Positions 3,230-26,453 of a stretch of 35,834 nt of DNA are shown one piece after another. The notes below the pieces were generated by a model. It saw nothing but the letters and a program-made list of their open reading frames with translations, was not told the DNA's origin and searched no databases. The DNA is from a virus. A program made the translations under genes and the position numbers. Location: positions 1-35,834 of the IMG/VR virus record IMGVR_UViG_3300044858_000951; one strand, given 5' to 3'. Positions within the stretch are counted from its first letter, which is position 1, and each line of letters opens with the position of its first letter.

Positions 3230-3397
3230 TTAATTTAATTTCAAAACAAGAGCAAGTAGAATAGCGATAATAAATCCAGCAGAACCTATTAGGATCTGCT
3301 CTAAGCGTTTTAACCTAGCATTGATACCTGTATAGCGTTCAGCACAGACAGCCTCGTGAGCAGACAATGCTGCCTCGTTTTTATCTATTGTTGTCAT
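3230..3397 (-). CDS. Small membrane protein of lysis cluster, 55 aa
   Basis: A 55-aa frame starting MTTIDKNEAALSAHEAVCAE. It has a helical N-terminal half and one hydrophobic segment (about 36-53, ILIGSAGFIIAILLALVL). Its ATG shares the last base of the preceding stop (TAATG), so it is translationally coupled. The shape resembles hemolysin XhlA-like or accessory holin proteins found next to phage lysis genes. Function inferred only from size, topology and position. Confidence 0.65.
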   Translation of the reverse strand: MTTIDKNEAALSAHEAVCAERYTGINARLKRLEQILIGSAGFIIAILLALVLKLN

Positions 3398-3570: not shown

Positions 3571-3573
3571 GAT

Positions 3574-4605: not shown

Positions 4606-4617
4606 GATTTTCCTTAA

Positions 4618-7718: not shown

Positions 7719-7721
7719 ATT

Positions 7722-8387: not shown

Positions 8388-8389
8388 AA

Positions 8390-8773: not shown

Positions 8774-8829
8774 TTTAGTAACCAGTTCAAAAAACTCCTC
8801 TAAACGATGTAGGGTTAGTTTTTCTATTA

Positions 8830-9744: not shown

Positions 9745-9748
9745 AGTT

Positions 9749-11985: not shown

Positions 11986-12590
11986 TAATTATTTACCCAT
12001 GAATTATTACTACCAGAACTTGTAGTCCAAGTAGTCGATGTTGGTGTTGTTCCTGTCCAAGGCTCTGAGCCTTCCGATGATACTGTCCAAACTGTCGTAC
12101 TAGGTGCTATACCTGTCCAAGCCTCTGTTCCTGCTGTCTCGCCTGTCCAATTATCGCCTAATATTCTGCCCAGGCAACTTACTGTAGAAGTGTTAGAAAC
12201 AGAACCTAAAGCAGAAAATACTGCGTTTGCATAACACGCTATGTTAGCCAATGCGTTAACACTAGCGTTGCCAGAAAAGTCTACATTACCAAGTGTACTA
12301 ACTGTCGTTACACATAGAATTTCACAGCTTGCTAGTCTTTGTCTAATTGCATTTGCTGTTATTGTTGCACTAGCAGATATAGAACCACTAAAGTCTCTTA
12401 TTCTGATACAACTTGAGTTTACTGAAACTGTACTAGTAATACTAGCATCAGCAAGCCGAAGTCTAATCGCGCTACTAACTACAGAACAAACACCATCTAT
12501 AGATGCGCTTGCCTCTGTAGGGGTTACATCACCTACACAATATCCTGTATCCCAATATCCATATACGACATATTGGTCTGCAAAAGCCAT
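11985..12590 (-). CDS. Repetitive beta-rich tail protein with Trp repeats
   Basis: A 201-aa protein with two repeat types. Residues about 25-140 carry alternating Ser/Thr/Val strands with recurring RLRLADASI, IRIRDFSGSI and RQRLASCEI units of about 23-26 residues. Residues about 147-201 carry repeated tryptophans (NWTG, AWTG, VWT, PWTG, TWT, SWV) about ten residues apart. Eight cysteines are spread through the first part. It lies between the propeller protein and a small tail protein and is likely a structural decoration or fibre-linked protein. I do not recognise a named family. Confidence 0.6.
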   Translation of the reverse strand: MAFADQYVVYGYWDTGYCVGDVTPTEASASIDGVCSVVSSAIRLRLADASITSTVSVNSSCIRIRDFSGSISASATITANAIRQRLASCEILCVTTVSTLGNVDFSGNASVNALANIACYANAVFSALGSVSNTSTVSCLGRILGDNWTGETAGTEAWTGIAPSTTVWTVSSEGSEPWTGTTPTSTTWTTSSGSNNSWVNN

Positions 12591-12856
12591 CAGCAGTCCT
12601 CTGCGCCTTCGTAATCACTAAAAGTCTTTAGAACCTCATATATGGCTGGGATTAAGTCGCCCTTTAAATCTTCCATATTGATATAGTGTGCGTTTTCTTT
12701 GACTGTAGCCATGTTGCCATGCCTTGCCGACTCATCGTAATGAATAGCGACTTGGACTTGGATTTGGTCTTTAGTGCCAAAGAAGTTAGTAATTCTAGCG
12801 TAGGCTTGTGGGGCTGGTACGCCAAATTGGGTTTGAACAGCGAGCTTAAGTGCCAT
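12590..12856 (-). CDS. Small conserved tail-region protein, 88 aa
   Basis: An 88-aa mixed alpha/beta protein (MALKLAVQTQFGVPAPQAYA, then VQVAIHYDESARHG). The pattern resembles the small proteins that sit between fibre and tail genes in environmental podoviruses. It overlaps the next gene by one base and follows the large fibre by 10 nt. Function unknown; a structural minor component or fibre chaperone are both possible. Confidence 0.6.
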   Translation of the reverse strand: MALKLAVQTQFGVPAPQAYARITNFFGTKDQIQVQVAIHYDESARHGNMATVKENAHYINMEDLKGDLIPAIYEVLKTFSDYEGAEDC

Positions 12857-12866
12857 TTAATTCTCC

Positions 12867-15155
12867 TTAAAAAGTTACTTCTGTCGTTTCTACCTTGCAG
12901 ACTGTTCGTATAGTCGTACTAGCCTGTCCAGTAAAGGTAATGCGTAATCCACCATTTGTAGTGTCTGCCGTAGCCGCTATAGCCCATGTTGCCGCACCTG
13001 CGTCTTGTGCTAGTAAAGTCGTAGTAACTAAACCTACAATCGTTGTGGAAGCCGCATTAGCACCACGCTTGATAGCACCTTCTAGTTTCCATGCAGATGT
13101 ATTGCCACCGCCTGTTACATTAGAAATAACAGTAGCTTTAAATAAATAGGCAGAGTTGTTAGGTAGTATTACTTGGTTTGTTGTTCCTGCGGCAGTACCA
13201 TCGCAAGTTAAAGCTGTTGCTGTTGCATCTGTAGTTTGTTTTCCAACAATAAGCATTGCGGATTGAGATACACCACCACTACCTGTTATTGCACCATTTT
13301 GTGCAGGAAATACTAAATATCCAGTAATAGAACGAGTATTTCCATATCGACCACCAACAACAGTTCCCATGCCTGAGTTTGCTGTATTTTGATAGCCACC
13401 TACAACTGTTGCTCCTGTAGTGTTAGCTACATTAATAACACCACCACCAACAACAGAGCCAGTACCTGAAGATGTATTAGATTGACCGCCACAAAGAACT
13501 GATGTAATGCCACTTGCCGTATTTGCTTGTGCGGAAGTTCCATCAAATCCCCCACCGCCAATAAATGAACCAATACCGCTTGCTGTGTTATTTCTACCCC
13601 CTACTACAGCAGAATAATCCCCACTAGCCACATTCCTATTAGCCGCAGTTCCAGCATCGCCTCCGCCTAGAATTGCACTATATGCCCCTGTAGCTTGGTT
13701 ATTACCACCGCCTACTACTACTCCATGAGGAGTAAAGAAAGATAGAGTGCTTGTAGATGAACCTGATGCGTTTTGGGAAAGGGTAAGGCTTGTTCCTGAT
13801 ATGGCGGCTACATAGGTATGAGGAGAAGCATTGATGCTTGTGCCAGTAATTAATTGACCGACCTTAATATTTGCGTTTGAGCCTGACAATGTAACCGCAG
13901 TAGTACCGTTCATAGTACCGCTTTGGGTGGTTACTGCTGAACCTGATGTTCCTGCGTTAGTAAAACCACCGCCAATAAAATTTAAATAACCTGCGGCAGT
14001 ATTAGAACGACCACTAACAACAGCAGCAGAGTAGTTGCTTGCCGTATTACTTTCGCCAGAACCTACAAAAGAATATGACCCGCTAGATGTATTTGTGTTG
14101 CCACCAGCAATAACAGAACCAAACCCTGATGAAGTATTATTATTGCCACCAGAGGCAGTTGCATAAGTTGAAGTTGCTCTATTGTTTCCGCCACCACCTA
14201 CTGTGGATTGTGACCCACTAGCTACTTGAGCGGCATTGTTTCTTGTAGTCTGCCAATCAACAGCATTAGCACCCCTAGCATTACCACCTGCTGTAGTAGA
14301 GTCTGTTTGTTGGGCTTGTAATGCGCCTGTTCCTGCTGGTTGTACAAATAAAGCACCATTAGACTCTAGTCCAATAGTAGATACTCCACTAAAGGATAGG
14401 GTAGGAGTTCCGTAGACTGCGGCTGAAGTAGTAGGGATGTAGGTGTTGGCAGATGAAGCAAATTCTAATTGTGCCCCCCACAATAATACAGTTGTGGCAA
14501 GCGAATTGCTTTCACCACGCACAGAAGTGCCGCTTGATATAATAAAAAATCTAGCGTCTGTTGCTGTTAAGCTAGTTGTTGTTGCAATGCAACGATACCA
14601 TCCATTACCAAAATTAACGATTGAGGCTGTAACAGAAGCATTACTACCTACAGTTCCTCCAGATAAGTCAAAATTGGCGAATGGAGTTCCATCTGCACCA
14701 AAAGCAATTTGAATAAAATTGTTTGTTCCAGCTTTTGCAAAAACAGATGCAGTTCTAGTTTGTCCAGCAGGCGTTGTGGCAGAACTTGCTGGCTGTATAA
14801 TGTGCGCCCCTGATGTTCCATCAGAAGTAAGTGTTAATGCAGTTAATGTGCTATCAGGAGCTACAGCAGAGTTTATTGAAGCAGATGCTCGTGTTGCTGT
14901 CCAATTAGATGCAAACTGACTTTGCAACAATAAATTCTGCCCAGTACCATTTAACCTAGCTGTCTGTCCTGTAATCGTAGTAGCGTTTACAGTAGATGGG
15001 GTAGTAGCACCTATAGTAGTGCCATTGATTGTGCCACCTGTGATGTCAGCAGCAGTCTTTTCTACCTTATCTGTATTAAGATTGGTAAAGTTAGCATCTA
15101 CCTCTACATGGGTAAGCGGAGAGCCTTTACCGGCTCTGGTAACAATAGTAGACAT
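12867..15155 (-). CDS. Large tail fibre with YadA-like (Hep/Hag) beta-roll repeats
   Basis: A 762-aa modular fibre. Residues 1-65 are an attachment and shaft segment with ITGGTINGTTIG. About 72-248 form a jelly-roll, lectin-like module (LLLQSQFASNWT ... NGWYRCIATTTSLT ... LLWGAQLEF ... YIPTT). Residues 310-405 and 478-605 are Hep/Hag repeats of about 14-16 residues with the pattern N-T-x-S-G-x-x-S-x-V-x-G-G, as in YadA adhesin heads. These are split by a 405-477 insert (VGQLITGTSI ... GTSLTLSQNASG). Residues 620-762 form a distinct C-terminal domain. It is presumably trimeric and involved in host binding. Confidence 0.82.
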   Translation of the reverse strand: MSTIVTRAGKGSPLTHVEVDANFTNLNTDKVEKTAADITGGTINGTTIGATTPSTVNATTITGQTARLNGTGQNLLLQSQFASNWTATRASASINSAVAPDSTLTALTLTSDGTSGAHIIQPASSATTPAGQTRTASVFAKAGTNNFIQIAFGADGTPFANFDLSGGTVGSNASVTASIVNFGNGWYRCIATTTSLTATDARFFIISSGTSVRGESNSLATTVLLWGAQLEFASSANTYIPTTSAAVYGTPTLSFSGVSTIGLESNGALFVQPAGTGALQAQQTDSTTAGGNARGANAVDWQTTRNNAAQVASGSQSTVGGGGNNRATSTYATASGGNNNTSSGFGSVIAGGNTNTSSGSYSFVGSGESNTASNYSAAVVSGRSNTAAGYLNFIGGGFTNAGTSGSAVTTQSGTMNGTTAVTLSGSNANIKVGQLITGTSINASPHTYVAAISGTSLTLSQNASGSSTSTLSFFTPHGVVVGGGNNQATGAYSAILGGGDAGTAANRNVASGDYSAVVGGRNNTASGIGSFIGGGGFDGTSAQANTASGITSVLCGGQSNTSSGTGSVVGGGVINVANTTGATVVGGYQNTANSGMGTVVGGRYGNTRSITGYLVFPAQNGAITGSGGVSQSAMLIVGKQTTDATATALTCDGTAAGTTNQVILPNNSAYLFKATVISNVTGGGNTSAWKLEGAIKRGANAASTTIVGLVTTTLLAQDAGAATWAIAATADTTNGGLRITFTGQASTTIRTVCKVETTEVTF

Positions 15156-15156
15156 A

Positions 15157-15543
15157 TTAAGCTAAGGTAACAGATAGATTACCGATTGCGATCTTAAATA
15201 CATCTCCTGTTTCTATTGTTTTAGAACTGTCTAGTGCAGTATGGTAGTACAGATTACCGCTTGTGCTTGCATCCAATATTCCAATATGGCTTACTGTTCC
15301 CCAAGTCGATGTGCATTGTGGAAACTCTACTGCAGCAGAGTTTGTAGATACACCATTGCTCGGCGCACCAAAAGTTACTGATTGGCGAGCATACGATCCA
15401 CCACTTACCTCTGTGCCTGTACCAGCATCTGTTGGGTCTGCTGTATAAAGACCAACATAGACTACAGAAGGGGAGGTAAAAGTTGTTGCTCGTAGAGTTG
15501 CATTGATTAGTGCGTTCTCTAGGTAGTTTGACATTTCAGCCAT
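15157..15543 (-). CDS. Phage tail-fibre-like small protein, 128 aa
   Basis: A 128-aa protein with YVGLYTADPTDAGTGTEVSG and YARQSVTFGAPSNG, followed by WGTVSHIGILDAST and LYYHTAL. This is the pattern of a widespread phage tail/fibre protein family whose members often lie beside fibre genes. It is separated from the 762-aa fibre by 1 nt. It probably sits at the tail tip or joins fibre to tail. Family recognition is by motif, with no enzymatic role. Confidence 0.7.
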   Translation of the reverse strand: MAEMSNYLENALINATLRATTFTSPSVVYVGLYTADPTDAGTGTEVSGGSYARQSVTFGAPSNGVSTNSAAVEFPQCTSTWGTVSHIGILDASTSGNLYYHTALDSSKTIETGDVFKIAIGNLSVTLA

Positions 15544-15552
15544 AGTATTTCC

Positions 15553-16173
15553 TTATCGTGAGGTTACGCGCATTTGTAATGGAACACCCGAATACTCGCT
15601 ATTTTGGTCTGCATCGGATATGTTTTTAATTGCTCTGTCGTACAGGGTTGCCCATGTCTGACTTCTTGCATCGTTAATAAGATACGGCTCTGCTTCTAAA
15701 AGCGAGGCATAGAGGAGAGCATCTGGATAGTTAGCAAGAAATACATTGCTTGCATTACCAGTAGACAATACAGTAGGTTTAGCATAGTAGAGGATCTCCA
15801 ATGTATATGCTGTATCTGGCTTTGGTGCTAACTCAAACTCGCTTGCCAGGATTGTGTAATAAATTGGTTTGCCACTCTCGTCTGCCGGAGCATCCCTAGT
15901 AAACAGACTAGGAGACATATAGGTAATAGGGTATCTTGGGTTGCCTTGGATATGCAAATCCCGAATCTCTAAAAAGTCTGTCGGTAACGCTACTTTGCCA
16001 TCACCACTTACTGTTAATGCTGTAGCTGACTCTAACATCTGTCGAGTGCGTAGGTCTCTTGCCATGCGTAGCTCTGCAAAGCTAATAAAGTCGGGGATAA
16101 CCGATGTTAAGTCTGATCGACCTAAGTAGTTAGCCACCGATGCTTTGAGATCGGTAAAGTTTGTATAAGCCAT
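15553..16173 (-). CDS. Head-tail adaptor protein (P22 gp4 / T7 gp11-like)
   Basis: A 206-aa protein beginning MAYTNFTDLKASVANYLGRS, with DFISFAELRMARDLRTRQM, VALPTDFLEIRDLHI and a C-terminal LYASLLEAEPYL helix. This is the layout of podovirus adaptor/tubular proteins that bind below the portal and start the tail. It is the first structural gene after the glycosyltransferase insert and precedes the tail genes, which fits an adaptor. The assignment rests on motifs and gene order. Confidence 0.75.
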   Translation of the reverse strand: MAYTNFTDLKASVANYLGRSDLTSVIPDFISFAELRMARDLRTRQMLESATALTVSGDGKVALPTDFLEIRDLHIQGNPRYPITYMSPSLFTRDAPADESGKPIYYTILASEFELAPKPDTAYTLEILYYAKPTVLSTGNASNVFLANYPDALLYASLLEAEPYLINDARSQTWATLYDRAIKNISDADQNSEYSGVPLQMRVTSR

Positions 16174-16181
16174 AATCTCTC

Positions 16182-16820
16182 TTACTCTTTTGGTATTTCG
16201 ATGTTATCCCAGCCATAGACATACTGCCCGATGTGCCGGATGCCTTTCGATAGATCGTGATCTACCCAAGTATCAAATCCTGCGTCTTTTGCCTTAATGC
16301 AGAAGTAAATATCCTCACCTAGTATTTTGTTGTTACCAAGTTGCTCAAAATAGAAATAAGGTTCTTCCATTGCCTTAAACACTTTGGTTTTAACCAACAT
16401 TACTCCGCAGCCAATGCCATCAGCTTTACTGATTCCTGACATTGCGTTGGAATAAATAGGAAACCAATCGACAGACCCATCCACTTCGCTTATTTTGAAG
16501 TTTTTGGCTGTCGGTTTGACAGGCTCAGATCGTGTTGTCGCATTGACTCCGATAATATCCTTATCGTGTGCCATGAGGATCTTGAGTGTGTCCTTTGGAA
16601 ACCGCATATCAGCATCTACAAATAACAGATAATCTGCTTTTATTTCTAGTGCTGTCTTAACTAAACTATTGCGCTGGTCAAATATTAGCGTTCCAGCACT
16701 CGTAAACAGGTCTATATCGTGTTTTGTGGTCTTAATGGTATACGCACACATTGCCACCAAATCAAACGCTGTAGCGACCTCCATTTGCCCTCTAGCGGGA
16801 ATACAAATAGCGATTCTCAT
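16182..16820 (-). CDS. GT-A-fold glycosyltransferase
   Basis: A 212-aa enzyme with an N-terminal nucleotide-binding strand (MRIAICIPARG), FDQRNSLVKTALE at about 48-60 and the metal-binding DxD in YLLFVDADMRFP (Asp69 and Asp71). A later EDIYFCIKAKDAG segment fits the acceptor-side acidic motif of GT2-like enzymes. It should transfer a sugar from a nucleotide donor; donor and acceptor are unknown. Its start overlaps the 113-aa gene by 4 nt. It is located among virion genes, with GT11 nearby, suggesting that a late structure is glycosylated. Confidence 0.85.
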   Translation of the reverse strand: MRIAICIPARGQMEVATAFDLVAMCAYTIKTTKHDIDLFTSAGTLIFDQRNSLVKTALEIKADYLLFVDADMRFPKDTLKILMAHDKDIIGVNATTRSEPVKPTAKNFKISEVDGSVDWFPIYSNAMSGISKADGIGCGVMLVKTKVFKAMEEPYFYFEQLGNNKILGEDIYFCIKAKDAGFDTWVDHDLSKGIRHIGQYVYGWDNIEIPKE

Positions 16821-17158
16821 ACCTCACCCCCTCTAGTTCTAAACACCCTGTTATCGGGGTCATTTAGCCATTTCTTGAGGGCTTTAGGGTCTTGGATATG
16901 AAAGCCACGCATAATGCCTTTAGCGTTCAGATCATTAATAATTGCTAGGGGTAACTCTGCTATCTTGTTCTTTGGGTCAAATACTTCGCCTGACCATCCT
17001 GTTTTGCCAGGATTGTTGTTGTACTGCGCTTTTGTATGCTCTGCAAAATCCGTTAAATCGGTTTGGGAGTGGATAACAATCCCACCATCGCCATCCGATA
17101 ATACTGTACGAATCTCACCATCTACAGTTTCTAAGTATTTCTTCACAGTTTGATCCAC
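16817..17158 (-). CDS. Conserved phage protein of unknown function, 113 aa
   Basis: A 113-aa protein with an ILS-DGDGGIVIHSQTDL core and a C-terminal GFHIQDPKALKKWLNDPDNR segment followed by VFRTRGGEV. I recall the ending in podovirus proteins encoded between capsid and tail genes, which suggests a virion or head-completion link, but I cannot name the role. It is sandwiched between two glycosyltransferases, overlapping GT11 by 16 nt and the GT-A gene by 4 nt, so the three are probably coupled. Confidence 0.65.
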   Translation of the reverse strand: MDQTVKKYLETVDGEIRTVLSDGDGGIVIHSQTDLTDFAEHTKAQYNNNPGKTGWSGEVFDPKNKIAELPLAIINDLNAKGIMRGFHIQDPKALKKWLNDPDNRVFRTRGGEV

Positions 17159-17841
17159 CTTTCAGGAATAATGTCGCTATCGTCTAGCCCATTGGTGAAC
17201 CACTTTTTTGGTGCTACTACTTTGTTTCCTTTAGCAAGCCAAGCACCCCACCATCCATACGAGCTATTCGCTATGATATGGTTTTTAAAGGAAGAAAGCA
17301 ACGCTAAATCTTGCACAGGATTGTTACAAGGCATGACCATATCAGCCCATTCTAGGTTCTCTGCACACCACTCAGGGTCATCTGAGAAAACCACAAAAAC
17401 GCTGTTAGGGAAGTTCTTTCTAGCTTCCCTATAGTAAGCCTCATCCAACTGTACGAAAACATCTGGTAGGCTCAAATAATCGCCCCTACGGACTGTTACT
17501 GCCACCATGTTCTCGTCTATCTCTGCCTTGGGTAGATAAAACTCCTTGCGGATCTCATCTTCTACACAATCAAAGTATTTCTCTGTCTGCCAGTAGCCCA
17601 CCATCATTCCTGACTTGGTGATCTCTTGGTAACTATGTTGTTTTTCCTTTATTGACTCCGCAAAATTATCTGTTACATGAAACGATATAGGGAAAACACC
17701 TAGTTCATACTGTCTATTTTTGTTTACTTCATAAAATGTTGTGTTCAACTCTAGGGTTTCCCCTAATGTCTTAGCAACTGCGTATCCTGCTGCGTATTGG
17801 AACATCTGGTTGCCCAGACCTCCCATAATGTAAACGATCAT
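17143..17841 (-). CDS. GT11 alpha-1,2-fucosyltransferase-like enzyme
   Basis: A 232-aa member of glycosyltransferase family 11, which transfers L-fucose from GDP-fucose. The diagnostic motifs are present: GGLGNQMFQYAAGYAVA at 7-23, VRRGDY at 117-122 (the HxRRxDY motif, with Thr116 in place of His), FSDDPEW at 152-158 and NSSYGWWGAWLA at 193-203. At about 230 aa it is shorter than typical bacterial members (about 290). The start codon sits directly after the post-capsid terminator with no ribosome site. With the GDP-mannose 4,6-dehydratase at 30962-32209 it points to a fucose-type pathway. Specificity is inferred. Confidence 0.9.
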   Translation of the reverse strand: MIVYIMGGLGNQMFQYAAGYAVAKTLGETLELNTTFYEVNKNRQYELGVFPISFHVTDNFAESIKEKQHSYQEITKSGMMVGYWQTEKYFDCVEDEIRKEFYLPKAEIDENMVAVTVRRGDYLSLPDVFVQLDEAYYREARKNFPNSVFVVFSDDPEWCAENLEWADMVMPCNNPVQDLALLSSFKNHIIANSSYGWWGAWLAKGNKVVAPKKWFTNGLDDSDIIPERWIKL

Positions 17842-17843
17842 AG

Positions 17844-17871
17844 AAAAGAGGGTAGATTTTGTCTACCCTCT
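17844..17871 (-). terminator. Strong intrinsic terminator after the major capsid gene
   Basis: A perfect 10-bp stem AGAGGGTAGA/TCTACCCTCT (17847-17856 with 17862-17871) with a 5-nt loop is followed on the minus strand by a T-run (complement of 17844-17847, then TCT). It lies 24 nt after the capsid stop and 3 nt before the GT11 start. It would limit expression of downstream late genes relative to the capsid, like the T7 terminator after gene 10, or serve as an RNA stabiliser. Confidence 0.85.
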
Positions 17872-17895
17872 ATTCTACTTATTATCTACTTAATA

Positions 17896-18846
17896 TCAAG
17901 CAGATAAGTCAAATGCGCCACCATGAGCAGCTTCGTTGCGAACTTCCAAGGTCAATTCAGCCAAGATTTGCTTCTTGTCAGCATCGCCAACTTTAGCAAT
18001 ATCATTGGTCTGGAATGGTCGGAGGTACGCTAATGCTGCATACTCAGGATCGAGTACGAGGGCATCACGAGTACGCATAAAGCGGTTAGGAACAATCTGC
18101 AATACACCAAAGTCGGATTGATATAAATCAGCACCGGCTAGGATGGTTGCTTGACCATTCGTAGGTACTTGATAGCGTTGTGCAGCCAAGCCAGTAAAGC
18201 CTGATACTGTCTGCTTGAGAGCAGGCGATACCATCAATACGGAAGGCGTACCACCACTAACGAATACCTTGCTGATAACATCCTTGAGGATGGTCTCAGT
18301 AAAGGTACGAGTTGTACCATCGGTACGGACTGATACACCAATTGTGGTTGGGTCTACACCAGCAGTTGTGCCAGCAGACTTGTTGGTGTTTGTCTTGATG
18401 TAAGACAACAACGAACTCATCTTACGAGCTACAGAGCCAGATGTACCTGCTGCTTGAGCTTGGTTAGCGGTAATGATTGTCTCAATATCACGCTTAATTT
18501 CAGCAGAAGCCTTTGCCAACTGGTAAGCCATCTCAGACTTACGACCAGCAAGGTCAGAAGCCAAGAGAGTACCAGAAACCATAACAGTCTTACCAACGAT
18601 CTGTGTAAGGTTGCCAAGGCGTGTGGTTGGGGTGATTGTTGCCTCAGAAGCACTTGCACCTTCAACTAATGCGTTGGAAGTGGTAGCTGCTGCGAGGGCA
18701 TCAGTCTGCCATTCGTGGTTAACGGAAGTCGCTTTGGTTTTGCCAATAGATGACATGATTGGGGTGTCGGTAGGGCTGATGTCATAAATAACATCGGTTA
18801 AGTCCTCACGCGCACCAATAGCGGTATAGCGATCATATGCTGCCAT
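17896..18846 (-). CDS. Major capsid protein, SU10/phiEco32 family
   Basis: A 316-aa protein starting MAAYDRYTAIGAREDLTDVI, with YDISPTDTPIMSSIGKTKA, an N-arm to E-loop region NHEWQTDALAAA and LAKASAEIKRDIE in the spine helix. This is the signature of the SU10 major head protein family (formerly DUF5309), an HK97-fold capsid protein of phiEco32-like and many environmental podoviruses. It follows the scaffold gene by 12 nt and is followed by a strong terminator, as expected for the most abundant late product. Confidence 0.9.
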   Translation of the reverse strand: MAAYDRYTAIGAREDLTDVIYDISPTDTPIMSSIGKTKATSVNHEWQTDALAAATTSNALVEGASASEATITPTTRLGNLTQIVGKTVMVSGTLLASDLAGRKSEMAYQLAKASAEIKRDIETIITANQAQAAGTSGSVARKMSSLLSYIKTNTNKSAGTTAGVDPTTIGVSVRTDGTTRTFTETILKDVISKVFVSGGTPSVLMVSPALKQTVSGFTGLAAQRYQVPTNGQATILAGADLYQSDFGVLQIVPNRFMRTRDALVLDPEYAALAYLRPFQTNDIAKVGDADKKQILAELTLEVRNEAAHGGAFDLSA

Positions 18847-18858
18847 GATTAAATTCCT

Positions 18859-19815
18859 TTATAAAAATCGTTCAAATAAACGAACTGCATCCTTTTTATT
18901 GCCAGATTGGCGTAATGCAGCTCTTTCTTTTTTTAATGCTTCATTATCAGAACTCTGCGGATTAGAAGTTCCTGGTCGAATAGTCTTAGGAGCAGTAGCT
19001 ACTTTCTTAGAAGTAACACCCTTGTTTGCCATCAACTTATCGTACTGTGCTGCTTTATAGAGGGCTAGTACAGCGCGACTATCGTAAACCTGAGACAACT
19101 CTTGATCTGAGAATCCTTGAGCCTTTGCATAATTGCGAATGTCTCTACGGATTACTTCGGCTTTCACATCATCCTTAAACTCTGGGATAGCCTCTACAAG
19201 TTTTGCCTGTTCTGCTTGGATATGCTTTTGCAACTGTGCTTGTTGGTGGGACTGCTGTTCTTGTTGAACTCGCTGTCTTTCCATCTGCACCGCTTGCAAC
19301 TGCTTATCTCGTTCCATCTTCTCTCCCATTGCAACTGCGTAAGCAATCGGATCTTCTGCCTTGAGTGATGCTAGGTCTTGGCTTTGATCTTGTTGCTGTA
19401 ACAATTGTTCAATGACTTGGAGTCGTTGGGCATAGGTTTCTCTGGTCTTTGCTGCTTCATCAATCTTTACTCGATCAGCCTCTACAGCCTTTCGTTGTTC
19501 CGCTAAAGATTGAGTTTTCTTCTGATAATCGGCAGTCCTACTGTAACCATTCAAAAGTTCATCAAGGCTAACTTCCACTTCTTCACCAGAGACTTTAACT
19601 CGGTATTTGGGGAGTTCCTCTACTTCTTCTTCTTGGCTTTCAGCTTCTTCTGCACTTACATCTTGCTCCTCGGACTCGGCAGAATACTCTGCCTCACTAG
19701 GTTCTGGTTGGGCTTGCGCCTCCTCCGCTTGTGGTTCAAGAAAAGACATAAATGCATTAGCTGCACCTGATACAGAATTGTCTACACTCCCTTGTGGGTT
19801 GGTGTTTTCACTCAT
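18859..19815 (-). CDS. Capsid scaffolding protein
   Basis: A 318-aa protein with an acidic N-terminal half (AEYSAESEEQDVSAEEAES, then QEEEVEELPKYRVK), a long Gln/Glu/Lys coiled coil (about 100-215) and a basic C-terminus (KKERAALRQSGNKKDAVRLF). Position between portal and capsid, composition and length fit a scaffold that directs procapsid assembly and leaves before packaging. The YRVKVSGEEVEVSLDELLNG motif near 75-95 is also common in such proteins. Confidence 0.85.
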   Translation of the reverse strand: MSENTNPQGSVDNSVSGAANAFMSFLEPQAEEAQAQPEPSEAEYSAESEEQDVSAEEAESQEEEVEELPKYRVKVSGEEVEVSLDELLNGYSRTADYQKKTQSLAEQRKAVEADRVKIDEAAKTRETYAQRLQVIEQLLQQQDQSQDLASLKAEDPIAYAVAMGEKMERDKQLQAVQMERQRVQQEQQSHQQAQLQKHIQAEQAKLVEAIPEFKDDVKAEVIRRDIRNYAKAQGFSDQELSQVYDSRAVLALYKAAQYDKLMANKGVTSKKVATAPKTIRPGTSNPQSSDNEALKKERAALRQSGNKKDAVRLFERFL

Positions 19816-19833
19816 TTTCGACCTCTATGGTTG

Positions 19834-20064
19834 TTAAAAAACCTTTACACGCTTCTTTTCAATTTCGCCATTGTGTGCGATTGATTGAATAGATGCTTCA
19901 AATTCTTCTAGTGCCTTTAGTTTGACTAAGGCTTTTTCTCTACCTTCTACATCATGCTCGGCAGAACTAAAGATATACGACTTGAATGAGTCTTTCTGAG
20001 CCTGTAATAGCTCTTGGAAAAACTCATCACCTAATAATGTTTTAGCTCTATCTACTTTGTTCAT
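19834..20064 (-). CDS. Small portal-proximal protein, 76 aa
   Basis: A 76-aa helical protein (MNKVDRAKTLLGDEFFQELL, then KDSFKSYIFSSAEHDVEGRE). It starts within the last codons of the portal gene (4-nt overlap) and precedes the scaffold. Small proteins of this type are common between portal and scaffold in podovirus relatives, but their role is not established. No domain recognised. Confidence 0.65.
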   Translation of the reverse strand: MNKVDRAKTLLGDEFFQELLQAQKDSFKSYIFSSAEHDVEGREKALVKLKALEEFEASIQSIAHNGEIEKKRVKVF

Positions 20065-22073
20065 CCAGGTATCCTGACATCTCCGCTAATTTTAGCCCCG
20101 ATTTGTGCTGCCTTCAATTGGGCTTCTGCTTGGAACTCTGCTGTCTTGAGTTCTAGGTTAGCTGCTGCCTTCTCTCTTTCGAGTTGGATAGAGGCTGCTG
20201 CTTTTGCTTTAGCGATTTCGATGTCGTTAATTGCTTTGGCTCTGTCTGTTTCGATCTGTGCCTGTGCCTGTTGCATCATCATATCTAACGCAGGGTTAGG
20301 TTGCTGTTGCTGTGGCTGTGGCTGAGACAACTGTTGGTCTAGCTCTGGTGGAATCTCTTTGAAAAACTCCATTGAGTCTTTGTACCCTGCTGCCTCGATA
20401 AACTTACCAAGTGTGTTGCGATACTGACCTACGCTTACTAACGGATTAGCAAAGCCTTGTGTTGTCAGAATCTGCTCTTGCTTTTGCATAACCATTGCTG
20501 CCATTGCCATCTTCTGATCTTGGCTACCTGTACCTAGACCGACATTGACTGTTACATCGTAGTTGTTCTTCCACTCTCTAGGGTCAATAGAGACATACTT
20601 GCCTCGTAAACGAATAACCCTTGGCTTGTCCTGATACTTTAGGATCAAGTGGAAAATACCTGCAAATAAGTCTTTTACACCTGTATCGGCAAAGATTCTA
20701 GCAATCATCTCTATACGACCAGAGCCTGCTTGTTGCATTGCTGCAATCGCTGTAGCTGTGGTATTTTGTAGAATGTTAGGATCTATACCTTGGCTTGTAG
20801 AAGTAACACCTGAACGCTTCTGCAATACTTGATCCATGTAATCAAGCATTGGGAACGACTGTGATGCTGTTGCCGGTACAGATAATGGTTGAACCGCGCC
20901 CTGAGACTTAATCCGAACTACACCGCCAGGCGATGAGGTTAGTAGGTCATCTAGGTTTACTTGTCCATCTAGGGCTGTAACCCTAGGCATATTGGTTAGG
21001 TACAGGTTATCTAAAATCTGACGAGTAATCGTAGACTTGATAAGCTGTATGTCCATTGCTCTATCAGCTAGACTCTGACCAAAAAACTTGTGTGGCATAG
21101 GAATCGGGCAGATGCTTGCAAAAGGAATATGATCTGTTTCCTCGTTGTCAATAATCTGATCGCCTGCATAAACTACCTTACGGAGTTCTGCAATCCCATC
21201 ACCATCAAAGTCGGTACGAATATAGCACTCGAACAACTCTACTTCTTGCATCGTAAAGTCTAGGCTTTGTGTCTCGTCTGGCATCTCGCCTGCGCTGTAC
21301 CTAGCCACTCGTTCAGGAGTATAAGTAAGGTCGTTGTACGCTGGCATCTTGTCCACTTTGTCTTGTGGATAGCCCATAGCGATTAAGTCTGATCGTGTCT
21401 TGACTGTGCGATGTGCGACAAATTTAGCGTTCTTGATGCTCTTATCGCGCTTGGCGATTAAGAACTCCTCTGGTGGCACATTCTCTACACAGACCTTGCC
21501 GACTTCTTTTTTCTTCTTGATGACTACATTATAAGAAAGGATAGGCATACCCATTGGGTCTATGCCTACTTCCTCGGTCTCTTGGCTGATTAACTCCATT
21601 TCACCATCAGCAAACAGAAGTGTTAGTTCTTCTGCGTTTAAACCTTTGTATTCTTCTTTAGTAGGATCTTCGCTATCCTCCCACCAATACTTAACGATTC
21701 CATTCTTCTGTAGAAGTGCATCCTTCATCCAGTTATGCATGAGGATAACACCATCGTTATCGTTAAAGAACACATAGTTCGTAAGTTCGGTAGCTTGCTT
21801 GGCAAACTCCTCGTCTCCTGGCATCCTAGGCTCGAACCGACCTAATTCGTCTGATCCAGCAAAGATACGCATTAACTGAGGTAAAGCACCATCTACAACC
21901 TCGGCTACTTCGCCTGTTACGATCTTAGAACGACCATCTATCTCGTTGCCATACTCGTAACGATTGTAGTAGTTGATCGCCTTTGTGCGTTGCTCTACTG
22001 TTTCGGTCTCTACATAGCCGATAGCATCGTCTATCTCTGCTTCGAGAATGACCTTTAGTTTCTGTTCATCCAT
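20061..22073 (-). CDS. Portal protein (P22-like, large)
   Basis: A 670-aa protein with the features of large podovirus portals: an N-terminal YYNRYEYGNEIDGRSKIVTG segment, WMKDALLQKNGIVKYWWED, VPPEEFLIAKRDKSIKNAKF, GQSLADRAMDIQLIKS and a clip region SGVTSTSQGIDPNILQ. The C-terminal 120 residues are a Gln/Ala/Lys-rich coiled-coil barrel (about 580-660). It forms the dodecameric DNA channel and binds terminase. It lies directly after the large terminase gene without a gap, as usual. Confidence 0.92.
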   Translation of the reverse strand: MDEQKLKVILEAEIDDAIGYVETETVEQRTKAINYYNRYEYGNEIDGRSKIVTGEVAEVVDGALPQLMRIFAGSDELGRFEPRMPGDEEFAKQATELTNYVFFNDNDGVILMHNWMKDALLQKNGIVKYWWEDSEDPTKEEYKGLNAEELTLLFADGEMELISQETEEVGIDPMGMPILSYNVVIKKKKEVGKVCVENVPPEEFLIAKRDKSIKNAKFVAHRTVKTRSDLIAMGYPQDKVDKMPAYNDLTYTPERVARYSAGEMPDETQSLDFTMQEVELFECYIRTDFDGDGIAELRKVVYAGDQIIDNEETDHIPFASICPIPMPHKFFGQSLADRAMDIQLIKSTITRQILDNLYLTNMPRVTALDGQVNLDDLLTSSPGGVVRIKSQGAVQPLSVPATASQSFPMLDYMDQVLQKRSGVTSTSQGIDPNILQNTTATAIAAMQQAGSGRIEMIARIFADTGVKDLFAGIFHLILKYQDKPRVIRLRGKYVSIDPREWKNNYDVTVNVGLGTGSQDQKMAMAAMVMQKQEQILTTQGFANPLVSVGQYRNTLGKFIEAAGYKDSMEFFKEIPPELDQQLSQPQPQQQQPNPALDMMMQQAQAQIETDRAKAINDIEIAKAKAAASIQLEREKAAANLELKTAEFQAEAQLKAAQIGAKISGDVRIPG

Positions 22074-23360
22074 TTATACGATCCATGAAGTTTTTACTGT
22101 TATCGGTTGCGACCAAGTAGTGTTTTGTTCCATTCCTAAAGCTAAATAACGAAAGCTGTCGCTGCCATGACTTGCCCAATCGTGCATTGGCTTGTCAAAA
22201 AAGACATTACGCTTTTCATCATAATCGCGCCTATAGTTCCTAAGACAGTCTAGCCCTTGCTTTACCTGTGGCATATTGAACCAACATCTCGGTAAGAGTC
22301 TACGGACTGCCTGAATACCATCATCTACAGAAAGTCTTGGCAGAACCCGAACATCTAGTCCAGCTTCTCTCAACACTTCCAATCTGCTCTTGCCTGTGCC
22401 TAGTTCTCTTACTTCTACATCGTGTGGTAGGAGTTGCTCTGCTTTCTCCCACTTGTTATCTTTTAGCCAGTTAACATACCAATCGAGTCCTTGACCATGA
22501 TTCTCTACATAGTCTAGTAGTCTTACTTCTTGTCCTGTTGCTTGTGCCACCCACAACGCTGTGCTATCACCCATGCCCAAATCCCAAGCCACATAAGTTC
22601 TACAGAGATCATCTCTCGTAATGTCGCAAAGCCTACCTTTTTCTTCGAGGTCGTTGATGAGTTTGCCATAGTAACTTCCCTCTACTGCTGCGTTAAAACT
22701 ACACTCGAACTCTTGGTTGTACTTATCGTCTCCCATTTCTTTTCTGGCAGACCATAACTCTTGTTCATCTAGTAGCTTTGTTTCGCTTGCCTTGAACTGT
22801 AGTGCTGCCCATCCTTCTTCTTTGCCTGCTCTGTCGAACAAGTCCTTGAAGTGGTTGTTTCCCTTCGGTGTGCCGATAAACAGACACGACCCTTTTCTGT
22901 CTGCAAGAGCCGGTCTAATGATCTCGTTCCATATTTTAGGATTCTGATCGCCAATTTCGTCTAGCACTACAGCATCGAAGTATTGCCCGCGCAAGGAGTC
23001 TGGGTTATCAGAGCCATAAAGCTGGATTCTCCTTCCGTAAAAATCTACTCTTAATTCCGCTATATTGGCTGTTGCATCCAATGGTCTACAGAAGTTTGTA
23101 AGGTAATCCCAAGCTACTCTCTTTGCTTGACTATATGTCGGTGCGATATACGCATACCGAGGGTTTGGCTTGTCGTTCTCCATCGCTGCTTTGATTAGCG
23201 CGTTTAGAGCCTGTACTGTCTTACCCATACGCCTATGTGCCACTACCACTACAAAACGATTGTTCTCCATCGCCTCATGGATCTGTAACTGTGGTTCTCT
23301 TGGCTTGTAAGGGATAACGACTCGTTTTACCTCATCGTCTGCGTACTCTACTTCTCCCAA
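22074..23360 (-). CDS. terL: Terminase large subunit
   Basis: A 428-aa DNA-packaging ATPase and nuclease. The adenine-binding YKPREPQLQ lies at 18-25, Walker A AHRRMGKT at 41-48, Walker B VVLDE at 131-135 and the coupling motif FIGTPKG at 161-167. The RNase H-like nuclease has VAWDLGMGD (Asp260 and Asp265) and HDWASHGSDSFRY (Asp401). No ATG precedes the Q-motif. TTG 23360, inside the end of the small subunit gene (13-nt overlap), is the most likely start. Confidence 0.95.
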   Translation of the reverse strand: MGEVEYADDEVKRVVIPYKPREPQLQIHEAMENNRFVVVVAHRRMGKTVQALNALIKAAMENDKPNPRYAYIAPTYSQAKRVAWDYLTNFCRPLDATANIAELRVDFYGRRIQLYGSDNPDSLRGQYFDAVVLDEIGDQNPKIWNEIIRPALADRKGSCLFIGTPKGNNHFKDLFDRAGKEEGWAALQFKASETKLLDEQELWSARKEMGDDKYNQEFECSFNAAVEGSYYGKLINDLEEKGRLCDITRDDLCRTYVAWDLGMGDSTALWVAQATGQEVRLLDYVENHGQGLDWYVNWLKDNKWEKAEQLLPHDVEVRELGTGKSRLEVLREAGLDVRVLPRLSVDDGIQAVRRLLPRCWFNMPQVKQGLDCLRNYRRDYDEKRNVFFDKPMHDWASHGSDSFRYLALGMEQNTTWSQPITVKTSWIV

Positions 23361-23653
23361 GCGACCACCATCTTAAAGATGCCACCTTCTGTATTGCTTA
23401 GTTCGGTAGTGTTAACAGGCTTACCATCTATCCTGTCCATGACTTCCTTGATTGCCCAAGGCTCTCCGGCTTCTGCTGACTTGACTAACTTCTCGGTAAT
23501 GTTCCTAAGTTTCTTTCGATCCTCTTGTACTAGGGCTACTCTTAGTGCATCGTAAAAGAGCTTTCCCTTCTTACCATTCTGATTGCCTGTAGGTGCGCCA
23601 CCTTTATTAGTTGGCTCAACTTGTAGATTATTGTTTTCTGTAGAGTTTTCCAT
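23348..23653 (-). CDS. Putative terminase small subunit
   Basis: A 101-aa basic protein with GGAPTGNQNGKKGKLFYDAL, a motif common in small packaging or DNA-binding proteins, and KLVKSAEAGEPWAIKEVMDR with IDGKPV. It lies directly upstream of and overlapping terL, the usual place for the DNA-recognition subunit. A purine-rich AGGGAA lies just before the ATG. A classic HTH is not obvious, so the packaging role rests on position and the motif. Confidence 0.7.
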   Translation of the reverse strand: MENSTENNNLQVEPTNKGGAPTGNQNGKKGKLFYDALRVALVQEDRKKLRNITEKLVKSAEAGEPWAIKEVMDRIDGKPVNTTELSNTEGGIFKMVVAWEK

Positions 23654-23713
23654 TCCATTCCCTATGGGTTGATGGTTGATGATGTTGCTATTCTACAACA
23701 TATTTACACATTA

Positions 23714-24109
23714 CTACTCTGCATTAAAAATCATGTTTTCGTACATCTGCTTTGTAATTCCTAGAGAATCTGGATTTGCACCATAGTCTCGCATGAAATA
23801 CTCTTTCCAAGCAGTTGGATGATCTAATGCTTTTAGCATCTCTCCTGTATTTGTAGAAGATGCCCAATGGTATCTATTTTGATCGTATGGGTCTCTCTCA
23901 GGAACAATGCCACTTAACCATGCTTTTCTGTAATCGTAATCAGAAGTGTTTAGGTCTGGTTCTTCTTTGTACTCTTTTACAAATTCTTTAAACCAATCTG
24001 TATTTCTAATCCAATTCTGGAAACCTTGCTCATCAAATCCTGATGGCACATTCAACAAACCACTTGTAGGCTGTTGTTGAGGCATAAGTAAGTCTAATAG
24101 TCCTGGCAT
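23714..24109 (-). CDS. Conserved phage protein of unknown function, 131 aa
   Basis: A 131-aa protein with a short Gln/Pro-rich N-terminus (MPGLLDLLMPQQQPTSGLLN) and a conserved core DYRKAWLSGIVPERDPYDQN and RYHWASSTNTGEML. The W/Y/H-rich core is recurrent in phage genomes near terminase genes but without assigned function. It follows the 95-aa gene by 3 nt. A 60-nt gap separates it from the small terminase and contains a TTCTACA motif (23691-23697). Confidence 0.65.
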   Translation of the reverse strand: MPGLLDLLMPQQQPTSGLLNVPSGFDEQGFQNWIRNTDWFKEFVKEYKEEPDLNTSDYDYRKAWLSGIVPERDPYDQNRYHWASSTNTGEMLKALDHPTAWKEYFMRDYGANPDSLGITKQMYENMIFNAE

Positions 24110-24112
24110 ATA

Positions 24113-24400
24113 TCACCACTTAACTTTGTCAGCCCAATACGCTGCACTCATTTTGCCTTTAGCAATGTTGCTTGCATGACGAGCCTTGAATGATTTTTGT
24201 CTTGCTTTGCCTGCCTCGGTCTTAGGATTAGCTCCTGCACCGCTTACACCTTGCTGACCAAATCGTATGGTCTTTACCTTATCGCCTTCTTTTGCGACTA
24301 CGACATGGCTTTTAGTAGGGTGATTTGGTGTTCTTTTAGGCTTGTTATAACCTGCGACACCGATTCTTTCTAATACTCCGGCAGCCTCTCGGATTTTCAC
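24113..24400 (-). CDS. Conserved basic phage protein, 95 aa
   Basis: It starts at GTG 24400, which overlaps the preceding TGA (GTGA). The C-terminal part reads KARQKSFKARHASNIAKGKM, then SAAYWADKVKW, a basic motif I recognise from many phage proteins encoded upstream of terminase. The N-terminal half contains HVVVAKEGDKVKTIRFGQQG, two strands. A nucleic-acid binding role is plausible from charge alone; function unknown. Confidence 0.7.
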   Translation of the reverse strand: MKIREAAGVLERIGVAGYNKPKRTPNHPTKSHVVVAKEGDKVKTIRFGQQGVSGAGANPKTEAGKARQKSFKARHASNIAKGKMSAAYWADKVKW

Positions 24401-24552
24401 TTCTTGACTCGCATTGACTTACCAGCTTCCGACATAGCGATAGCGATGGCTTGCTTGGGGTTTTTTACGACCTTACCGCCCTTGCCAGAATGTAGCTTTC
24501 CTTCTTTGTACTCGCCCATTACTTTGCCAATCTTTTTCTGAGCCTTAGACAT
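24397..24552 (-). CDS. DUF6496-like small basic protein, 51 aa
   Basis: A 51-aa frame MSKAQKKIGKVMGEYKEGKL, HSGKGGKVVKNPKQAIAIAM, SEAGKSMRVKK. The KVM-x-E-[YF]-KEGKLHSG and KQAIAIAxSEAG patterns match the small DUF6496 family found in phages and bacteria. Its ATG lies 8 nt inside the end of the GT7 gene and its TGA overlaps the next GTG, so it is translationally coupled on both sides. Function unknown. Confidence 0.75.
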   Translation of the reverse strand: MSKAQKKIGKVMGEYKEGKLHSGKGGKVVKNPKQAIAIAMSEAGKSMRVKK

Positions 24553-25276
24553 TTTCATATAGATCCTCTAGGTTATATTTGCACCACAATAAAGGTGCTT
24601 GCTCTCCGTCTGCCATGCCTCTTGCGATATGCTGTTGTATGGAAACGACAGTAGCGCCTAGTGTACTGAGTCCATCTACCATATCAGGGTAAACCCTATG
24701 CTTAAATCGTTCTGCGTTTGCCTTGCTTGCCTCGGACTCTCCGTTGGCATCGTAGCCGTTAGAATCGTGATCTAGGGCGATAAAAGTACCATCCTTGTAC
24801 CCTAGGGGTATCCCGACTGATTCGAGCCTCTTAGCAAGGTCTGTGTCCTCGTAACCCCATCCCCAATAAGTATTGGAGTATCCGTTACAGGCTTCAAAAT
24901 GCCACTTACGCATGACTGCAACTGCTGCTAATCCGTAGCGTTGCGCGCATACTGCTCTGTCTGTGCCATGCCCTACTGGTCGTTTATCCATGCCATACCA
25001 GACTATTCGGCTTGGTAGGTTAGGTTCGGTGTAGTCTGCCCACATTGGTAGGTAATCTACATCGTGAAAACACACATAATCGATCATGCCTGCACAAGCT
25101 GCATAAGCATGATTGACTATTGCGCCTCGGTTAAAAGGTAGATCATCGTCTTGTTCGGCTAGAACAAACAAGGGTTCTATGTCGGTATTTCTACGAAAGA
25201 ATGAGACTGTATGAGGTAGCATCTTTTTTAGATGCTCCTCTCTGTTTCGGTAGGGGATTATTATACCTAATCTCAA
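24545..25276 (-). CDS. GT7 beta-1,4-galactosyltransferase-like enzyme
   Basis: A 243-aa GT-A fold enzyme with the ordered motifs of glycosyltransferase family 7 (B4GalT-type): IPYRNREEHL at 7-16, FNRG at 48-51, the metal-binding DVDYLP at 72-77 and WGWGYEDTDLAKRL at 138-151, the acceptor and N-acetylglucosamine pocket. Family members transfer Gal or GalNAc from UDP donors, typically to GlcNAc. It is encoded among late genes just upstream of the packaging block, overlapping both neighbours. Donor and acceptor here are inferred; the fold and motifs are clear. Confidence 0.88.
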   Translation of the reverse strand: MRLGIIIPYRNREEHLKKMLPHTVSFFRRNTDIEPLFVLAEQDDDLPFNRGAIVNHAYAACAGMIDYVCFHDVDYLPMWADYTEPNLPSRIVWYGMDKRPVGHGTDRAVCAQRYGLAAVAVMRKWHFEACNGYSNTYWGWGYEDTDLAKRLESVGIPLGYKDGTFIALDHDSNGYDANGESEASKANAERFKHRVYPDMVDGLSTLGATVVSIQQHIARGMADGEQAPLLWCKYNLEDLYENV

Positions 25277-25431
25277 GATTTCTTTTTGTAAGGTTTAGCA
25301 GTTTTAGCTGCTTGTTTAAAAGCCTTGGCTGTTGGTGCGCCTGCTGTTCCTGGCTTACGCATCTTCTCGCCTGATCCTTCGGCAATGCGTTTTCTCTTTG
25401 CTGCGATATTGCTGTAGAGACCCTGTTTCAT
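25273..25431 (-). CDS. Small basic phage protein, 52 aa
   Basis: The ATG at 25431 has an excellent ribosome site (GGAGGAAGA just upstream) and gives MKQGLYSNIAAKRKRIAEGS, then GEKMRKPGTAGAPTAKAFKQ. A longer frame to 25476 would begin with an unlikely RRRR stretch. The KxGLYxNIxAKRxRIAxGSGExMRKPG pattern is widespread in phages just upstream of terminase genes. It is highly basic and may bind nucleic acid. It overlaps GT7 by 4 nt. Confidence 0.75.
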   Translation of the reverse strand: MKQGLYSNIAAKRKRIAEGSGEKMRKPGTAGAPTAKAFKQAAKTAKPYKKKS

Positions 25432-25796
25432 TCTTCCTCCTCGTATTCTTCTTCTTCTGCACCCATAGCTTCCCAAGCCATACAGCCTCGTTCACCTTTG
25501 CAGACAAAATCGAATATAGCACAATGACCCATATCTTTGGGAACACCGCATTTAGTCATTTCTTCGCCTGTTTCGTAGTATTCGCAGGCTTTACATTTAC
25601 CTTCGCCATCCTTACGATCACCATATTCGGCTGTAAGAACTGCTTTTTTCATGTTGCCTTTGTTTATATCGGCATCCATTGTAGAGAGTGGGCAAGATTC
25701 GGTATCGGACTCTAATAGACCACCCTCAGACTTCTCAGCCATCTTTGGCTCTTTGCCTAGTAGACCGATCATTATTGACATACCTTTTTCTTTCAT
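25428..25796 (-). CDS. Cysteine-rich late protein, 122 aa
   Basis: Residues about 68-106 carry the pattern C-x-A-C-x-Y-Y-x-T-G, then C-G-V, H-C, V-C and G-C-M-A-W: seven cysteines and a histidine that could bind metal or an iron-sulfur cluster. The C-terminus is a Glu run (AEEEEYEEEE). The start is uncertain: ATG 25796, 25781 or 25772, the last having AAAGG ten nt upstream. It is the first gene after the late terminator, in the leader region controlled by the Q-like system. Confidence 0.65.
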   Translation of the reverse strand: MKEKGMSIMIGLLGKEPKMAEKSEGGLLESDTESCPLSTMDADINKGNMKKAVLTAEYGDRKDGEGKCKACEYYETGEEMTKCGVPKDMGHCAIFDFVCKGERGCMAWEAMGAEEEEYEEEE

Positions 25797-25799
25797 ATC

Positions 25800-25868
25800 G
25801 CACCCAAAAAAAAGCCCTATTGCTAGGGCTGTAAAGAAGAATCACTAAATTTTGGGTGCAATGACCCA
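25800..25868 (-). promoter_or_regulatory. Alternative-pairing leader element around the late terminator
   Basis: GCACCCAAAA (25800-25809) and TTTTGGGTGC (25850-25859) are a perfect 10-bp inverted repeat enclosing the terminator hairpin. The inner arm can instead form TGGGT/ACCCA with 25864-25868 (6-nt loop). On the minus-strand transcript the two pairings exclude each other. The outer pairing also covers the GGGTG just before ATG 25796 and part of the U-run. An attenuation or translation-control role is inference. Confidence 0.5.
25806..25830 (-). terminator. Intrinsic terminator upstream of late genes (tR'-like)
   Basis: On the minus strand, AGCCCTA/TAGGGCT (25824-25830 with 25813-25819, 4-nt loop) is followed by seven T. 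It lies between the Q-like regulator gene and the first late gene on the same strand. Transcripts from the nearby promoter should stop here unless antitermination occurs. This is the lambda tR' arrangement. Confidence 0.85.
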
Positions 25869-25873
25869 AGCAA

Positions 25874-25902
25874 ATTATAAAACATTTTTAGGCTTTCTAC
25901 AA
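25874..25902 (-). promoter_or_regulatory. Candidate late promoter (PR'-like)
   Basis: On the minus strand there is a perfect TATAAT (25879-25874) preceded by TTGTAG (25902-25897) at 17-bp spacing, giving a predicted start near 25867. It lies in the 127-bp gap after the Q-like gene and about 37 nt before the terminator hairpin. The -35 overlaps a TTCTACA motif of the type clustered at the repressor operator region. Confidence 0.55.
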
Positions 25903-25923
25903 TGAAAACAAATAAATCGTTCA

Positions 25924-26373
25924 TTAATCCCATTGTTGTAGATTTCGAAAATCCCATTCTCGGTTGTCTTTTTCTCCTGACACCTTGAGCATATCCGCAT
26001 AGTCCTTAGATTTGGCTTTCTTGTCGAGTTGGTCTTGAAGTCGCTTTTTTGCATTGGTTAAATCTGTCTCTAGCCTAGTTGTTGATTTTCTTAGGTGGTG
26101 GGCTAGTTGATTCTGACTAGCATATGGATGGCTCACATAACGAGCTTTTAATACTTTTCTGAGTTCTTGGGGTAAACCCTTAATTGCCTGTTCTATTATT
26201 TCTCCATCTTGATGGTCTGGCTCGTAGTGTGGTTCTTCTGGTGCGTAAAGATTGCCGAGTTCTGGTATGTAGTTTTTCTCAAACGATCTACAAGTTGAGT
26301 CAGGTTGAGGTACTACAGTTCCCCAAGAAACATACCAAGCCCAATTTCTAAGACGATCTTCTAGACCCATCAA
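25924..26373 (-). CDS. Q-like antitermination / sigma-70 region 4-like regulator
   Basis: A 149-aa protein. The N-terminus EDRLRNWAWYVSWGTVVPQP, then CRSFEKNY, and the middle IIEQAIKGLPQELRKVLKAR, YVSHPYASQNQLAHHLRKST, look like the NWA...C-S-E-Y and sigma-region-4-like HTH layout of phage Q-type antiterminators and related late regulators. A basic coiled coil follows (108-130). It sits immediately upstream of a promoter and terminator that precede the whole late operon, exactly where lambda Q acts. Family match is moderate; context is strong. A plain HTH repressor or activator is the alternative. Confidence 0.6.
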   Translation of the reverse strand: MMGLEDRLRNWAWYVSWGTVVPQPDSTCRSFEKNYIPELGNLYAPEEPHYEPDHQDGEIIEQAIKGLPQELRKVLKARYVSHPYASQNQLAHHLRKSTTRLETDLTNAKKRLQDQLDKKAKSKDYADMLKVSGEKDNREWDFRNLQQWD

Positions 26374-26453
26374 TAATCCTTAATTATATGATTGTATAAT
26401 TGTAATCAAAATTTCTGTATTATTTCAATATCTTAACTACTTGTAGAGATAAA
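26374..26453. promoter_or_regulatory. AT-rich divergent promoter region
   Basis: This 80-bp gap separates the minus-strand Q-like gene from the plus-strand phosphoesterase gene. It contains TATAAT on both strands (26395-26400 plus; complement of 26383-26388 minus, with a TTGATT 15 bp upstream), a TATTAT at 26418-26423 and a TTGTAGAGA half-site (26441-26449) next to the plus-strand start. Divergent promoters are likely, but I cannot fix the exact boxes. Confidence 0.45.

Follow-up and report, generated by a model that had tools for sequence, protein, structure and literature searches.

A probable Q-like module for late antitermination, with a regulator of a new family, in an uncultured freshwater phage

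Organization of the late control region

The window, that is, the whole stretch of DNA analyzed here, is the IMG/VR record IMGVR_UViG_3300044858_000951 of an uncultured freshwater phage, with a length of 35,834 nt. Table 1 collects the features of its late control region and late operon. All parts of the module lie on the minus strand, in the order regulator gene, promoter, 37-nt leader, terminator and late operon. The original prediction had placed a TTGTAG-17-TATAAT promoter after the regulator, then a leader of about 37 nt, a 7-bp terminator with seven T, and the entire late operon on the strand of the regulator, and we find each of these elements at those positions. It had also given the regulator 149 aa. 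That reading frame exists (25924-26373, with a TTG start), but the ATG at 26370 is the more likely start, and it leads to the 148-aa protein that we call P0001. Comparisons are with 88 further loci with the regulator in public viral contigs, which makes 89 including the window.

Table 1. Positions of the features of the late control region and the late operon in the window.
Feature	Position	Strand	Remarks
Candidate promoter of the regulator itself	26399..26428	-	TTGAAA-18-TACAAT
Late regulator P0001, 148 aa	25924..26370	-	phrog_19609 E 1.3e-5; TIGR02937 E 1.4e-6; model and Foldseek; alternative start TTG 26373
59-aa ORF, CxxC...CxxC	25875..26054	-	+1 frame of regulator 3' end; stop codon inside late -10
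-35 element TTGTAG	25897..25902	-	3/6 to consensus
Spacer A-tract, candidate equivalent of a Q-binding element	25885..25889	-	A4+ in 20/21 upstream contexts
-10 element TATAAT	25874..25879	-	kept with start region in 86/89 loci
Start-region inverted repeat TTGGGTCATTGCACCCAA	25852..25869	-	GGG-N8-CCC frame in all classes; pairing partly kept
CAAAAT, candidate -10-like pause element in the initially transcribed region	25849..25854	-	[CT]A[AG]AAT in most variants
Intrinsic terminator AGCCCTAGCAATAGGGCT and seven T	25806..25830	-	stem kept, loop changing in 47/85 relatives
First late gene, 122 aa	25428..25796	-	no family match; ATG at 25796
Late operon, 24 kb	1807..25796	-	one strand
Terminase	22074-23360	-	late operon
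Portal, SU10-type	20061-22073	-	late operon
Scaffold	18859-19815	-	late operon
Major head protein	17896-18846	-	late operon
Endolysin	1807-2280	-	operon end

The regulator gene lies directly upstream of the late operon. Metallophosphoesterase and SprT-like genes (26454-27829, plus strand) diverge from it, and therefore the regulator begins its own transcription unit.

The regulator protein

P0001 is laid out as an N-terminal helix (residues 3-16), a conserved loop (17-52) and a sigma-region-4-like domain (53-120). Over residues 53-115, its sequence matches the sigma-70 ECF superfamily (TIGR02937) in region 4, and sigma profiles match P0001 only via their C-terminal region 4. A sigma profile search found no region 2 in P0001, which distinguishes it from the sigma factors of phiEco32-type phages, with their regions 2 and 4; lacking region 2, P0001 therefore cannot replace sigma at the -10 element.

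The AlphaFold model is confident only for residues of about 53-120, and in the best Foldseek hits this part fits sigma region 4 with deviations of 1.3-1.5 A. In this structural search, the top matches are consistently sigma region 4, with E-values no better than 0.04. The N-terminal part of the model, where the helix and the very conserved loop lie, is unreliable (pLDDT about 35). A second AlphaFold model built on a deeper alignment was worse (pLDDT 50.6, pTM 0.23), and it was left aside. P0001 has a sigma-region-4-like HTH of the kind found in Q-like antiterminators, its fold class and its reading of a promoter being predicted from sequence and model.

The description of P0001 as a Q-like regulator stands for this domain, which is as in 21Q, but by sequence the protein belongs to no known Q family. 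Neither P0001 nor its relatives match the Pfam Q families PF06530 (21Q), PF03589 (lambda Q) or PF06323 (Q82), and a search for PF06530 across the record was negative. Comparing the P0001 family with the Q21 and QuuD groups using HHalign results in E-values of 0.04-0.3 and a probability of about 1%, versus 97.7% for QuuD against Q21. The Pfam and profile-profile comparisons do not support P0001 as a direct member of the known Q families. (A viral scan with E. coli QuuD reported identical copies only and was useless as a source for a profile.)

The late promoter and the start region

The spacer between TTGTAG and TATAAT is 17 nt long, and transcripts would start at about 25867. A standard promoter scan does not list this TTGTAG/TATAAT promoter, in which TTGTAG has 3/6 matches to TTGACA. 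The pattern TTG-N20-TATAAT is found once in the window versus 0.56 expected by chance, and elsewhere in the window the late-promoter motif does not recur above chance. Taken alone, the promoter is weak evidence.

What settles that the promoter is real is the conservation of the -10 element and the start region, together with that of the A-tract. Both the -10 and the start region are present, in 41 distinct variants, in 86 of the 89 loci, and the three missing loci (L063, L075 and L080) have sequences that end before the promoter region. An A-tract is present between the -35 and the -10 in 20 of 21 upstream contexts, versus a background of 10.6%; these contexts are not all independent, and hence we attach no probability to the comparison. 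The -35 element is somewhat above background (a mean of 3.29 vs. 2.52 matches in the 21 contexts), and poor, with 2/6 matches, in the contexts of several relatives. The CAAAAT element, at about +14 to +19, is conserved in most variants.

The start-region hairpin has one clear double change (T-A to C-G), yet it is broken in several classes, and for that reason we dropped it as a proven RNA structure. TATAAT as such is strongly depleted across the window, with 11 occurrences found vs. 32 expected.

The terminator and the leader

The terminator stem (25830-25813) has 7 bp, 4 of them G-C, and a GCAA-type loop, followed by seven T ending at 25806; the energy of the hairpin is -10.6 kcal/mol. It is the sole hit with at least 7 pairs, 4 G-C and 7/8 T on either strand of the window, versus a mean of 0.15 in shuffled sequences. 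Because it is the only strong terminator in the window against that expectation, we do not attribute it to chance.

A terminator in this location could merely end the mRNA of the regulator operon, including any inserted genes, with the late promoter being constitutive or controlled in some other way. The regulator has a candidate promoter of its own whose transcript would meet the terminator, and whatever the architecture, even with inserts, the terminator sits between the regulator and the late genes. On the other hand, the terminator is downstream of the conserved late promoter, so that late transcripts would be stopped too, and the same order is found in the distant Burkholderiales relatives. 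We regard this explanation as very unlikely.

The whole leader folds better than shuffled sequences (z -4.06), and in the fold the ribosome-binding site is paired. This would be expected of an RNA switch that controls the first late gene by leader folding, with no polymerase-loading protein, and in which GCACCCAAAA has two alternative partners, the 5' GGGT and TTTTGGGTGC, the latter containing the ribosome-binding site. The relatives, however, lose the GGGTGC pairing: it is broken in L025 and L047, and those without a terminator use other ribosome-binding sites (GAGG, AAGG) and have no such pairing. We reject the switch, to which we give hardly any probability. An Rfam search reported nothing.

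Variation among the freshwater relatives

Many of the relatives have one or two extra genes between the regulator and the late operon, and in those cases the promoter-leader block stays beside the first late gene. Otherwise near-identical phages (L002-L081) differ by the presence or absence of one or two genes after the regulator, and the promoter-leader block travels with the late operon.

The terminator is the variable part. Out of 85 leaders, 47 have a separate terminator, 6 have a run of T7-8 straight after the start-region hairpin (L074, L077, L150, L154, L155 and L158), and 32 have neither, so that the intrinsic terminator present between late promoter and late genes in the window is missing from 32/85 relatives. 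The T7-8 arrangement would place a terminator as close as about 25 nt to the start. No T-tailed terminator is found up to +3 kb from the terminator-less leaders, with some contigs ending earlier. On the tree of the regulator gene, the terminator label needs 7 changes in total; for the terminator state, well-supported branches force 4 or more of these. A close kin of the window, L002, does not have the terminator, and L040 (with terminator) and L041 (without) have an identical regulator protein. Because those 32 freshwater relatives are without a terminator, antitermination is not the only credible mechanism here.

The 59-aa ORF, which the original prediction missed, overlaps the 3' end of the regulator gene. 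Its ATG is conserved in 89/89 relatives and its four cysteines in 87/87 intact copies, and dN/dS is 0.15 over the conserved C-terminal codons. The regulator residue at the ATG of the ORF varies (N, Y, H), while the ATG stays. The C4 motif is zinc-ribbon-like. In loci without inserts, part of the conservation in the -35 region may be the coding constraint of this ORF; the promoter also persists where other genes have replaced the sequence of the ORF. P0001 and the 59-aa four-cysteine protein could jointly form a split Q system, acting on promoter-proximal pausing as much as on termination, and the terminator would therefore be free to be gained and lost among relatives. We consider such a split system quite unlikely.

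Homologous regulators in Burkholderiales

Regulators homologous to P0001 are found in the Burkholderia phages Magia and IPK, and in prophages of Burkholderia, Paraburkholderia and Caballeronia. P0001 and the regulator of L076 match phrog_19609 with E-values of 1.3e-5 and 2.4e-6 respectively, and the freshwater and Burkholderiales families find each other in HHalign with an E-value of 2.7e-7 and a probability of 93. A genome scan with the freshwater regulator did not report any relative.

A single small ORF separates the regulator from the preceding RusA gene in both Magia and L255, and in L255 a metallopeptidase and the terminase come after the regulator. The place between RusA and terminase is the position of Q in lambdoid phages.

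The cis-anatomy is the same. A TTGTAA-17-TAT[AG][AG]T promoter is present at the 3' end of the gene in 24 of 24 distinct Burkholderiales loci, with the stop codon of the regulator (TGA, TAA or TAG) inside the -10. A strong terminator is found in 22/26 loci; of the remaining four, two are truncated by the end of a contig or record, and the other two show decay. The stems are GCCGCC, GCCCGC or GCCCCG with matching complements, which are compensatory changes; this statement rests on stems read directly, as the automatic pair count recovered only 2/26. The phrog_19609 proteins of Magia, IPK and the Burkholderiales prophages are thus true homologs with the same gene-promoter-terminator anatomy, but their systems differ in that the promoter overlaps the regulator gene itself, there is no four-cysteine ORF, and the structured leader is longer, in addition to having other hosts and virion genes. 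This anatomy is the strongest argument for a Q-like module as opposed to a coincidence in one contig.

Between promoter and terminator, the leaders of L252-L275 also have two conserved features, a hairpin (CTTCCC...GGGAGG) and a stretch around GATTACCGATTCCGCC, which are possibly a pause or an RNA element.

The regulator could instead be an activator, or a surrogate of sigma region 4, which binds the spacer or the -35 and recruits or opens RNA polymerase, while the terminator only damps leakage. The fold of P0001 fits such a role, as does the weak -35 (3/6 in the window, and even 2/6 in several relatives); in the relatives without a terminator, control of initiation would have to suffice, and L040 and L041 combine one regulator protein with both kinds of leader. 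On the other hand, 21Q too combines a sigma-region-4 fold with an N-terminal segment, and the Burkholderiales homologs keep before the first late gene a near-consensus promoter and a strong terminator in which stem changes are compensated. Activation at the promoter is in our view unlikely, but it stays a serious rival because some leaders do not have a terminator.

Comparison with known antiterminators

Compact Q-PR'-tR' modules are already known, for instance in ST64T and HK639. New here are the Q-like role of this regulator family, the connection that it makes between freshwater phages and prophages of Burkholderiales, the variability of the terminator, and the four-cysteine ORF that overlaps the regulator.

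The order regulator, promoter, terminator and late operon is that of lambda Q, PR' and tR'. The A-tract of the window sits where we take the spacer of lambda PR' to have its A-run. Lambda Q matches PF03589 and phrog_127, unlike P0001; the leader in the window is much shorter than that of lambda; and the zinc motif, which in lambda Q is an insert within the chain, is in the window a separate overlapping ORF.

The 21Q family (phage 21, ST64T, HK639) is similar in other respects. 21Q consists of sigma region 4 and an N-terminal helix, with ring-forming loops, and the ring is located in the RNA exit channel (PMC6606751). P0001 likewise has its sigma-region-4 fold after an N-terminal segment, as 21Q does (PMC6606751), and its gene is just before the late operon; ST64T has the same compact layout, with the promoter over the 3' end of Q and the terminator close behind. 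The differences are that 21Q and P0001 have no significant sequence or profile similarity, that the 21Q spacer has TGAGCA direct repeats where the window family has an A-tract, and that some relatives of the window are missing the terminator, unlike the 21Q systems. The known Q families also lack mutual sequence similarity (PMC7171158). Q-like antiterminators have in common an architecture and not a sequence, so new families are recognizable by anatomy only.

Two other regulators can be likened to P0001 by description, as precedents for a binding element in the spacer combined with an early terminator. AlpA of Pseudomonas aeruginosa has a C-terminal HTH and a binding element in the spacer between -10 and -35, with an intrinsic terminator from +54, 54 nt after the start (PMC7969949, PMC9371919); it differs in being a chromosomal lysis regulator. 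GafZ, of the Caulobacter gene transfer agent, is an antiterminator with a sigma-factor-like HTH and a binding element between -10 and -35, and it raises expression also without its terminator (PMC11150451); it differs in that it acts with GafY and IHF, and in that the terminator comes after the first gene. Because GafZ acts both with and without its terminator, effects on the promoter and on termination can occur together.

The phiEco32-like phages likewise have late control by a phage sigma-like protein, and a related portal family. The original prediction had called the module a mosaic in contrast with phiEco32. That contrast is weak and adds little, because the portal family is widespread, being common to many phages; the nearest matches are from uncultured spring-water, Methylophilales and Pelagibacter phages.

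A model for late control

Putting the comparisons together, it is likely that late transcription in the window is under a Q-like antitermination module whose regulator represents a new family. The arrangement resembles the Q switch of lambda, and it probably works like it too. The proposal that the module follows the Q-PR'-tR' logic is well supported by the 21Q-like layout and by the Burkholderiales homologs; the main doubt comes from the 32 freshwater relatives with terminator-less leaders.

The reading best supported by our analysis is that the module would work like Q of phages 21, 82 and lambda, as follows. From a promoter of the host sigma-70 type at the 3' end of the regulator region, transcription would proceed as far as the terminator and give a leader RNA of about 60 nt. 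Once the regulator has accumulated, its sigma-region-4-like domain would recognize the promoter spacer with its A-tract, and the protein would load on RNA polymerase halted close to the start, the -10-like CAAAAT being the probable site. By narrowing the RNA exit channel, the conserved N-terminal segment would then keep the terminator hairpin from forming, and RNA polymerase would read the 24-kb late operon.

An unnamed phage protein family, present in uncultured freshwater phages and Burkholderiales prophages, is in this way tied to a Q-like cis-module. The natural leaders with and without a terminator, even for one identical regulator, allow a direct test of whether such factors need a terminator or whether their action is mainly on a promoter-proximal pause.

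Other observations in the window

The two ends of the window (1-952 and 34883-35834) repeat each other with 95.9% identity, and a gene for a RecE-like exonuclease is present at each (265-906; 35126-35788). The record probably represents a closing, complete genome, about 34.9 kb long and assembled from close strains, or else it has two diverged copies. Finally, the protein encoded on the minus strand at 30962-32209 resembles GDP-mannose 4,6-dehydratase and weakly matches a cupin at its C-terminus, apparently as a fusion for sugar modification.
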